A stretch of DNA of 64,000 nt, taken from contig NZ_FOHB01000001.1 of assembly GCF_900111375.1 (NCBI RefSeq), forward strand, positions 434,001 through 498,000. The letters run 5' to 3'. Below are positions 41,274 through 47,864 of the stretch, piece after piece. Positions within the stretch are counted from its first letter, which is position 1. Each line of letters opens with the position of its first letter. Under the pieces are notes generated by a model that saw only the letters and a program-made list of their open reading frames with translations, was not told where the DNA came from and did not search any database. Made by a program: the position numbers and the translations under genes. The DNA comes from Pedococcus cremeus (GTDB taxonomy: Bacteria > Actinomycetota > Actinomycetes > Actinomycetales > Dermatophilaceae).

Positions 41274-41302
41274 CGGCATACCGGTGGTCGTGCGGTATGC
41301 CG
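41274..41302. repeat. Octamer dyad in the divergent promoter region
   Basis: CGGCATACCG (41274-41283) and CGGTATGCCG (41293-41302) are perfect 10-base inverted arms around nine bases. Each arm contains one copy of the window's frequent octamer. It lies between divergent genes, so it is unlikely to be a simple terminator. Confidence 0.85.
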
Positions 41303-44818: not shown

Positions 44819-44866
44819 GCCGCCACCCTAGGTGACGGGGGCCGCGCAGACGCGACTACCGAGCCC

Positions 44867-44927
44867 GTATGCCGCGTGAGCGGCCCTCGCGGCACGTCAC
44901 CGCGTGAGCCGCTCCCGCGGCATACGT
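44867..44927. repeat. Long octamer dyad between ndh and the M16 operon
   Basis: CGTATGCCGCG (44867-44877) pairs with CGCGGCATACG (44917-44927), and after one mismatch GAGCGG pairs with CCGCTC, giving an 18-bp stem with one mismatch. It sits just after the ndh stop on the minus strand and may act as its terminator. It also lies just upstream of the M16 operon. Confidence 0.85.
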
Positions 44928-44948: not shown

Positions 44949-46370
44949 TCAGGAGGAGCGGAGGGCGCGCTCGCGGGCCTCGGCGACCGACAGGTGCTCG
45001 GGCTTCTTGTCGGCCGGCACCCTCGGCAGCGACGGGGCGTACTCCTCCCCCAGGTCCTGGATCGCCGTGCGCGCGAACACCTGCTGCTCGGTGACGGTGC
45101 GCTCCGAGCGGCCCCGGCCGACGAAGCTGACCGCCCAGTGCAGCAGCGTGGTCAGCCGGTGCTTGAAGCCGATGATGTAGACGAGGTGCACAGCCAGCCA
45201 CAGCACCCAGGCGACGAAGCCGGTGAAGCGCAGCTTGCCGATGCTGGCGACCGCGCTGAACCGCGAGATGGTCGCCATCGAGCCCTTGTCCTTGTACTCG
45301 AAGGGGCCCCTCGGGGGCTGCCCGGCGAGGCGGCGCTTGATCTGGTCGGCGGCGTAGCGGGCGCCCTGGATTGCCACCTGGGCCACACCGGGGTAGCCCT
45401 TGAGGGCGGCCATGTCACCGACGACGAAGACCTCCGGGTGGCCCGGCAGGGTCAGGTCGTCGTTCACCTTGACGCGGCCGGCGCGGTCGATCTCGGCGCC
45501 CGACTGGTCGGCCAGCATCTTCCCGAGCTCGGAGGCCTGCACACCGGCGGCCCACACCTTGGTGACCGACTCGATCCGGCGGTGGTTTCCGTTCGCGTCC
45601 TCGACCTCGATGCCGGTGGCGTCGACGCCGACGACCTTGGCGCCGAGCTGCACCTCGACCCCGAGCTGCTTGAGCTTGGTGGCGGCTTTGGCACCGAGGT
45701 CCTCGCCGAAGGCGCCGAGCACGCCCGGTGCCGCGTCGAGCAGGATGATCCGGGCCCGGGCGGGGTCGATCTTGCGGAAGTCGCGCTTGAGCGTGCGGTG
45801 TGCGAGCTCGGCGATCTGGCCGGCCATCTCGACACCGGTGGGACCGGCGCCGACGACCACGAAGGTCATCAGCCGCTCGATCTCCTTGGGCGTGCTGGCG
45901 AGCTCGGCGTACTCGAACGCGCCGAAGATCCGCCCGCGCAGCTCGAGGGCGTCGTCGATGCTCTTCATGCCCGGCGCGTAGCGGGAGAAGTGGTCGTTGC
46001 CGAAGTAGGACTGACCGGCGCCCGCGGCGACGAGCAGCGTGTCGTAGGGGGTGACCGTCTCGCGGTCGAGCACCTTCGAGGTGACCGTCTTCTTCTCGAG
46101 GTCGATGTGGGTGACCGTGCCGAGCAGCACGCGCGCGTTGCGCTGGCGGGCCAGCACCTCGCGGGTGGTCGGCGCGATCTCGCCCTCGGAGAGGATGCCC
46201 GTGGCCACCTGGTAGAGCAGGGGCTGGAACAGGTGGTGGGTGGTCTTGGCGACCAGCGTGATGTCGACGTCGGCGCGCTTCAGCGCCTGCGTCCCGAACA
46301 GGCCACCGAAGCCCGACCCGATGACGACCACGCGATGACGCTGGCCCAGTGCTGACTCCTGCGACGGCAT
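44949..46370 (-). CDS. ndh: Type II NADH dehydrogenase
   Basis: This 473-residue flavoprotein transfers electrons from NADH to quinone without pumping protons. The FAD fold is VVVIGSGFGGLFGTQAL, the NAD fold VVVGAGPTGVEMAGQIAEL, and the C-terminus has a membrane-binding helix TGFVAWVLWLAVHLVYIIGF. LLYQVATGILSEGEIAPTTR is typical of NDH-2. ATG at 46370 has GAGGAGAG upstream and lies within an octamer (GGTATGCCG). A terminator-like hairpin with a T-run ends only about 23 bases before this ATG, leaving no room for a promoter after it, which suggests attenuation. Frames further upstream are open to 46502 but read through that hairpin. Confidence 0.92.
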   Translation of the reverse strand: MPSQESALGQRHRVVVIGSGFGGLFGTQALKRADVDITLVAKTTHHLFQPLLYQVATGILSEGEIAPTTREVLARQRNARVLLGTVTHIDLEKKTVTSKVLDRETVTPYDTLLVAAGAGQSYFGNDHFSRYAPGMKSIDDALELRGRIFGAFEYAELASTPKEIERLMTFVVVGAGPTGVEMAGQIAELAHRTLKRDFRKIDPARARIILLDAAPGVLGAFGEDLGAKAATKLKQLGVEVQLGAKVVGVDATGIEVEDANGNHRRIESVTKVWAAGVQASELGKMLADQSGAEIDRAGRVKVNDDLTLPGHPEVFVVGDMAALKGYPGVAQVAIQGARYAADQIKRRLAGQPPRGPFEYKDKGSMATISRFSAVASIGKLRFTGFVAWVLWLAVHLVYIIGFKHRLTTLLHWAVSFVGRGRSERTVTEQQVFARTAIQDLGEEYAPSLPRVPADKKPEHLSVAEARERALRSS

Positions 46371-46392
46371 ACCGACACTCTCCTCTTCACGC

Positions 46393-46425
46393 AAAAAGAC
46401 GGCCACCCCACCGTGGGGTGCCGTC
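46393..46425 (-). terminator. Terminator-like hairpin in the ndh leader (possible attenuator)
   Basis: On the minus strand GACGGCACCCCAC pairs with GTGGGGTGGCCGTC (one bulged G) and is followed at once by TTTTT. This is the only hairpin in the window with a clear T-run. The ndh ATG lies about 23 bases beyond it. Confidence 0.75.
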
Positions 46426-46598
46426 CTCGCTGACGCTGTGGGTGCACTCGCAACAACAACGCTAGAGCAGCCCGTATGCCGTGTCGCGGCAGGCGTGCGC
46501 ACGGTGCGACGTGCGTCACGTCACCGTCTCGAGAATGCGGCCGAGGTTCTCAGCAGGTGGGACGCCTCGGTCGCGCCCGCCCCGGTGAACTGGTCACC

Positions 46599-47864
46599 TC
46601 AGGGACTGGTCGGGCCCTCGGTGGCCGTCGTGGTGGCAGTCCCCGTGGTGGTGGTCTCCGTCGGGGTGACCGTGGCCGTCGCCGAGCAGGTGGTCGGTGA
46701 GGGCGAGGGGCTCGTGGTCGTCGTGGTCGGTGTCGGCGTCGTGGTGGTGGGCGACGGCGTGACCGTGACGGTCGTGGTCGGCGACGGGCAGCTCGTGGTG
46801 CTGGTGCCCGGCGTCTGCGTCGTGGACGGCGTCGTCGTGGGAGACGAGGTCGTGGGACTGCTGGTGGTGGTCGGCGCCGAGGTGGTGCCGGTCGCCGTGC
46901 CCGTGGTCGAGCTGGGCGTCGCGGTGCCCGTCGTGGCGGTGCTCGGTGTCGTCGTCACGGGAGCCGGCGTGGTGCGGGCGGCCGTGGGCGAGGTGGTCGC
47001 GCCCGTGGTGGAGCTGGGCGACAGCGATGTCGCGCTGCTCTGCGGGACCGGCAGCTGGCTGGCGCGACCGCCCGAGGCGACGGTGAAGTCGACCGAGCTG
47101 ACCGCCTGGAGGCCCTTGCCGTCGAAGTAGCGCATCCACTCAAGCACCGCGAGGACGTAGGCGTCGGACTGGTTGTACGCGTAGATGGCCGCGCGGAGCT
47201 CCGCCGGGACGGACAGGTCACGGCCGTAGTTGCAGAGGTAGCCGGCCGCGGACCAGGCGGCGTCGTAGACGTTCTGCGGGTCGGCGCGGCCGTCGCCGTC
47301 ACCGTCGACCCCCGACCTGGCCCACGTGCTGGGGATGAACTGCATCGGCCCGACGGCGCGGTCCCAGGTGCTGTTGCCGTCGATGCGGCCGTGGTCCGTG
47401 TCCGGGATGGTGGCGAAGGGGCCACCGTCGAGCAGCGGGCCGAAGATGCCGGGCCGCACGACGTGGTCGGCTCCGATCTGCCGGCCGCCGGCGGAACCCG
47501 ACTCGATCTGGCCGATGGCCGCGAGCAGCGACACCGGCAGGTTGCACGACGTCGGCGAGGCTGCGACCGCCGACCGGTAGGCCGCCACGAGCACACCGGC
47601 GCGGTCGAGGCCTGCCCGGGTCACGGGGTGCTCGGACCGGGAGACCGGCAGCGGGATCGCCCGGGTCATCACGGTCCCGCGCTCCTGCCGCTCGGTGGCC
47701 GAGGTGGGCGGCAACGTCGGGGTGAGGCCGTCGAACCCCTTGATGGCCGGGAAGGCGTACCGGGGAACGGGCGCCCCGTTCGGCCGCTCGCCCGACGTGG
47801 GCGTGGAAGGCACCGCGCCCGCGAACGCCACCAAACCGGCCAGCAGGACCGTCGTGAGCCGCAT
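46599..47864 (-). CDS. Secreted lytic transglycosylase with Thr-rich tail
   Basis: This 421-residue secreted protein has a signal peptide (MRLTTVLLAGLVAFAGAV). The SLT-like catalytic domain spans residues about 90-280, with SLLAAIGQIESGSAGG carrying the catalytic Glu, AVGPMQFIPSTWARSG, DPQNVYDAAWSAAGYLC and AIYAYNQSDAYVLAVLEW. The last 140 residues are almost only Thr, Ser, Pro, with TTT and TSTT runs, an extended and probably glycosylated stalk. It should cleave peptidoglycan during growth or resuscitation. ATG 47864 is used; the frame is open to 47942. The next gene on the strand is ndh, about 230 bases on. Confidence 0.88.
   Translation of the reverse strand: MRLTTVLLAGLVAFAGAVPSTPTSGERPNGAPVPRYAFPAIKGFDGLTPTLPPTSATERQERGTVMTRAIPLPVSRSEHPVTRAGLDRAGVLVAAYRSAVAASPTSCNLPVSLLAAIGQIESGSAGGRQIGADHVVRPGIFGPLLDGGPFATIPDTDHGRIDGNSTWDRAVGPMQFIPSTWARSGVDGDGDGRADPQNVYDAAWSAAGYLCNYGRDLSVPAELRAAIYAYNQSDAYVLAVLEWMRYFDGKGLQAVSSVDFTVASGGRASQLPVPQSSATSLSPSSTTGATTSPTAARTTPAPVTTTPSTATTGTATPSSTTGTATGTTSAPTTTSSPTTSSPTTTPSTTQTPGTSTTSCPSPTTTVTVTPSPTTTTPTPTTTTTSPSPSPTTCSATATVTPTETTTTGTATTTATEGPTSP

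Follow-up and report, generated by a model that had tools for sequence, protein, structure and literature searches.

The type II NADH dehydrogenase, NDH-2, is the non-proton-pumping route by which NADH enters the respiratory chain. To our knowledge, control of its gene, ndh, takes place at promoter DNA, by Rex, CRP and FNR. At CRP class I promoters the site lies about 61.5 bp from the start, and the second half-site of the CRP/GlxR consensus is TCAC. The ndh locus described here is predicted to share the arrangement of CRP/GlxR class I promoters, with a GTGA-N6-TC(G)C site roughly 60 bp upstream of the start, but its second half-site is TCGC. In M. smegmatis, deletion of crp1 left ndh expression unchanged (PMC12713383). 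Rex control of S. avermitilis ndh2 and B. subtilis yjlC-ndh likewise regulates an NADH dehydrogenase gene. Rex binds promoter DNA (PMC5355995), whereas the feature in the leader of our ndh gene is RNA-like.

The closest systems in build are the leader terminators of attenuated operons such as trp, his and ilvB1, where a hairpin with a T-rich tail likewise separates the promoter from the first gene's ribosome site. The M. tuberculosis ilvB1 attenuator has a BCAA-rich uORF, and ndh does not occur in the text that describes it (PMC13236596). The ndh leader differs from those of trp, his and ilvB1 in being very short and in having neither a leader peptide with key codons nor an alternative antiterminator. 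Leader terminators are already known as a kind, but we found none described for ndh, and a literature search of partly available sources found no description of ndh attenuation.

Results

A hairpin and a T-rich tail directly precede ndh

The window that we analysed is a stretch of 64,000 nucleotides from Pedococcus cremeus (contig NZ_FOHB01000001.1, positions 434,001 to 498,000). The features of the ndh locus, in window coordinates, are:

44949-46370, minus strand: ndh, encoding an NDH-2 type NADH dehydrogenase of 473 aa (Pyr_redox_2, 1.2e-45; NDH2_C weak, below its cut-off)
46380-46387, minus strand: ndh ribosome-binding site, AAGAGGAG, with GAG invariant in an alignment
46393-46397, minus strand: tail of the putative terminator, TTTTT
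46398-46428, minus strand: leader hairpin P1, with a lower stem of GAGGACGGC and GCCGTC, one bulged G and a variable apical stem-loop
46371-46452, minus strand: predicted ndh 5' leader RNA, its start near 46452 deduced from where the -10 hexamer stands and how the CRP-like site is spaced
46459-46464, minus strand: predicted -10 hexamer TAGCGT (TANNNT)
46474-46481, minus strand: CGGCATAC, a word over-represented across the genome, standing at a constant position ahead of the -10 hexamer
46506-46519, minus strand: CRP/GlxR-like site GTGA-N6-TCGC, with its centre 60.5 bp upstream of the predicted start of the transcript

The genome also encodes complex I (NuoD-type matches). The hairpin core, GACGGCACCCCACGGTGGGGTGGCCGTC, runs from 46425 to 46398 on the minus strand and the stem extends to 46428. 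From 46428 to 46393 the parts read GAGGACGGC-ACCCC-ACG-GTGGGGT-G-GCCGTC-TTTTT (hyphens mark part boundaries only), which is the make-up of an intrinsic terminator, a GC-rich hairpin followed directly by a T-rich tail. On folding, a 66-base piece that holds it forms a single hairpin in which one G is bulged out, at -29.5 kcal/mol (z -2.3), and the hairpin taken alone has a z of -4.1. An earlier note on this DNA had placed a hairpin and TTTTT about 23 bases before the start codon. Both are present, and the distance from the end of the T-run to the ATG (46370) is 22 bases. These bases carry the ribosome site. No promoter fits behind the hairpin, as that note had also held.

A strong hairpin by itself is nothing exceptional in a genome so rich in GC, as 35 of 215 other leaders contain a hairpin of -22 kcal/mol or better. 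The surprising feature is the hairpin plus the T-rich tail. When hairpins of -12 kcal/mol or better had to be followed by a run of at least 4 T, 9 places qualified in 464 kb of the genome and 3 in the window, with energies of -21.9 here and -15.5 and -12.7 elsewhere. The suggestion that the window holds only one classical terminator is correct for strong hairpins. A second scan took hairpins of -14 kcal/mol or better and counted T in the next 8 bases; its control gene models came from a GC3-based heuristic and were not curated. The ndh leader has 6 T of 8. In the post-stop regions 4 T occurred in 10 of 134 and at least 5 T in none. Five T were seen once when the same 134 regions were read on the opposite strand and once among 201 other leaders, and no gene interior (0/142) reached 5 T. 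In this one scan, the ndh leader exceeds all the 134 post-stop regions, 142 gene interiors and 201 other leaders sampled. The loose pattern GACGGC-N-GGCCGTC occurs at 142 places in the genome, compared with 65 for the control, and gave no useful lead.

The hairpin is conserved before ndh in three genera

The arm motif and its flanks stood out in seven of the ndh loci first examined, and these seven were made into a covariance model. Among 186 family genomes, with the loci of the 30 best places opened, the model located the element directly before ndh in 15. A search for the same hairpin in relatives had been recommended, and it bore out the element in three genera: two genomes of genus g1 (our own and G001), eleven of g33 and two of g8, one of the latter a Nostocoides metagenome-assembled genome. 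These 15 carriers are mutually related and do not count as 15 independent cases. The hairpin is absent from most other ndh orthologues examined, in the family and beyond. It is single-copy in our genome, where the next model match has an E of 0.13.

The z values of all 15 hairpins lie in the range -3.5 to -7.3. Averaged over pairs of genomes, identity is 97% for the 5' arm and 92% for the 3' arm, compared with 60% and 77% for the apical sides, and the apical part varies in length while its pairing is retained. Standard pairs make up 95.6% of cells in the alignment fitted to the model (slid controls, 30-66%). Covariation in the stem is thin, with two pairs changed on both sides, in three cells (A-U to C-G, C-G to G-C). 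An unpaired G or A opposite the stem is retained in most of the 15. In 14 of the 15 leaders, our own included, 4 or more of the 8 tail bases are T, and in nine leaders 5 or more are. The unbroken TTTTT is seen only in the window's genome; in most relatives the tail reads TTCGTCTTT or TTTCGCG, and both g8 genomes have just 3-4 T.

Nine model matches away from ndh were read in context. For seven of them, a predicted stop codon lies 13-47 nt ahead of the point where the match starts; the genes that end there include some whose products, assigned by eye, are ribosomal protein L17, superoxide dismutase and ribosomal protein L28. These seven look like ordinary terminators. The model's own tail favours TTCGTC-like tails, so the tail likeness of such other matches is partly built in. 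At L164 (1501-1562), a terminator-like match (E 1.5e-6) lies between genes reading as rplQ and truA and starts about 70 nt before the second. A hairpin of the same kind lies behind a tRNA-Met gene in L014. T-tailed hairpins unrelated in sequence precede ndh in Knoellia subterranea (L063, 5 T of 8) and K. aerolata (L056, 4 T of 8); these are possibly independent leader terminators.

The hairpin belongs to ndh and is not coding

In our genome the hairpin lies about 170 bases behind the stop codon of a transglycosylase gene. The upstream gene is a transglycosylase in 10 of the 15 genomes and something else in the rest. In L152, L159 and L165 the frame upstream resembles an O6-alkylguanine methyltransferase, judged by its PCHRV motif, and in L161 it resembles the end of a helicase. 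Because the hairpin is kept before ndh behind these different upstream genes, we rejected the idea that it is the transglycosylase gene's own terminator. The distance from the arm to the start codon, modulo 3, is 0, 1 and 2 in 5, 2 and 8 of the 15 genomes. As this distance takes all three frames, the hairpin is not coding. This rejects an earlier GTG at 46502 as the ndh start, and excludes the upstream start codon that the earlier note had named as the finding that would overturn its reading.

A predicted CRP-type promoter lies upstream of the hairpin

TANNNT is found at a fixed place in 13 of the 15 genomes, and the same 13 have GTGA-N6-TC(G/A/T)C upstream, a pattern held by 22 of 15000 shuffles. 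Counted from the start that the hexamer predicts, this CRP-like site is centred at -59.5 to -61.5. In both g8 genomes TANNNT is missing and the CRP-like match, near -50, is looser. Our genome codes for a Crp-type protein (HTH_Crp_2, 1.4e-17), so that a predicted site at class I distance and a protein of the type that might bind it occur together. GGCATAC is present in all 15 leaders, 23 bases before (G/C)TTG, which begins 18 bases past GGCAT. As a genome-wide promoter motif, GGCAT-N18-GTTG was likewise unproductive, with 25 matches against 9 for the control. A slightly looser form was found in 19 of 124 regions upstream of ndh orthologues and in 19 of 2480 block-shuffled ones. GGCAT-N18-GTTG also precedes ndh in L004-L007 and L019, family members without the hairpin, and this promoter-like pair may therefore predate the hairpin.

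The promoter-like elements lie upstream of the hairpin and are conserved in 13 of 15 genomes. Thus, the ndh promoter is most likely upstream, and the hairpin would fall within the leader RNA from about +25. Judged by these predicted elements, the putative terminator comes after the promoter of ndh itself and before the start codon, which is the position of an attenuator. One of the possibilities raised before, a promoter within 46426-46598, agrees with the conserved promoter-like arrangement in that interval.

The word CGGCATAC at 46474-46481 is part of a wider pattern. There are 36 copies in the window (1.1 expected), and it is the most over-represented 8-mer of 464 kb, with 245 copies against 6.4 by dinucleotide expectation, about 38-fold. 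The genome has 2417 copies, compared with 102 of the reversed word. Among family genomes, 21 of 36 have 900 to 4724 copies and the other 15 have 11 to 293; in the order's other families, the 22 genomes counted hold no more than 167 each. Copies are strand-balanced and denser outside genes (0.87 per kb) than inside (0.46). Neighbouring pairs within 60 bp are inverted in 12 of 12 cases, and some inverted pairs form hairpins between convergent genes. Other window examples lie at 44867-44925 and 41274-41302. The inverted pair GTATGCCG...CGGCATAC at 44866-44926, in the gap that separates the ndh stop (44949) from the gene that follows (44818), is a possible ndh terminator built from two copies of the word. 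DNA uptake sequences in Neisseria and Haemophilus show such behaviour, and by analogy CGGCATAC behaves like one. Our literature search, in the parts of the sources available, found no such uptake sequence shown for actinobacteria.

No antiterminator, leader peptide or known riboswitch was found in the leader

The leader before the hairpin is 19-36 nt long in 14 of the 15 genomes and 53 nt in L156. No leader segment pairs with the 5' arm above shuffles (p<0.05) in any of the 15, and one does so with the 3' arm in a single genome. A small 5' hairpin in the leader was no better than shuffles and was rejected. GTG or ATG occurs near the predicted start in 11 of 15, and a comparison by eye found no shared peptide or frame, which answers the proposal that the leader be searched for small frames. 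None of 4227 Rfam families reached its gathering score in the window, and none had E<=5 in 46340-46620. A conditional terminator in the classical sense, which had been suggested for this hairpin, is so far unsupported, given so short a leader without a significant antiterminator or a shared frame.

Discussion

On balance, we favour the reading that the hairpin and T-rich tail form an intrinsic terminator within the ndh 5' leader, downstream of the gene's own CRP-type promoter, and we hold it with somewhat better than even confidence. ndh would then probably be held down by an early stop of transcription. We propose that RNA polymerase starts near 46452 at this predicted promoter, that transcripts would reach the hairpin after about 25 nt, and that a fraction would stop at the T-rich tail. 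ndh would be expressed only from polymerases that read through. The data fit either a terminator that sets a constant level or read-through aided by a protein or by elongation factors; a classical two-state attenuator or a riboswitch does not fit. Since neither a leader peptide nor an antiterminator nor a known riboswitch was found, any regulation that takes place would be exerted by a protein on the hairpin or by elongation factors. The best reading of the sequence comparison is that ndh attenuation would be partial and perhaps factor-controlled. A more specific form, which we regard as speculative and on the whole unlikely, is that a protein recognises the near-invariant lower stem and the bulged G or A and couples redox or energy state to read-through, with no leader peptide or riboswitch.

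Four other explanations bear on the same hairpin. It may be a 5' UTR structure that affects mRNA stability or the start of translation, by opening or closing the ribosome site, with negligible termination. This is possible, if somewhat doubtful. The hairpin ends about 5-15 nt before the ribosome site, the relatives' tails are not full T-runs, and pairing of the pyrimidine tail with the ribosome site is feasible in L163, L165 and L160 (by eye). However, the predicted openness of the ribosome site ranges from 0.27 to 0.99 across the 13 of 15 leaders computed, so masking is not consistent, and a UTR structure does not predict a T-rich tail. It is improbable that the hairpin insulates ndh against upstream read-through, with an unseen ndh start within or behind it. 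T-tailed hairpins of this kind normally end genes, and this one follows a transglycosylase stop by about 170 bases, but the 22 bases left before the ATG hold the ribosome site, conserved promoter elements lie upstream, and the hairpin persists when the upstream gene is a different one.

The inverted repeat GGACGGC-N-GCCGTCC could also be a DNA operator for a dimeric regulator. The position of the arms, shortly past the predicted start, and their 92-97% identity among the 15 genomes would suit an operator, yet the gap from GGACGG to CCGTC varies from 16 to 29 bases, which rejects a fixed one, and the apical pairing is retained although a fixed dimer site does not require it; we consider an operator quite improbable. 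Functionless inheritance by descent within a small clade would account for an element confined to three genera in a genome where strong hairpins are common (35/215 leaders). It would leave unexplained why the arms stay nearly constant and the T-rich tail is kept while the apical and flanking sequences change, and we give it very little weight.

If the element is indeed a conserved leader terminator, then part of the control of the NDH-2 gene would be placed in RNA elongation. It would be a leader terminator kept through three genera without a visible sensor.
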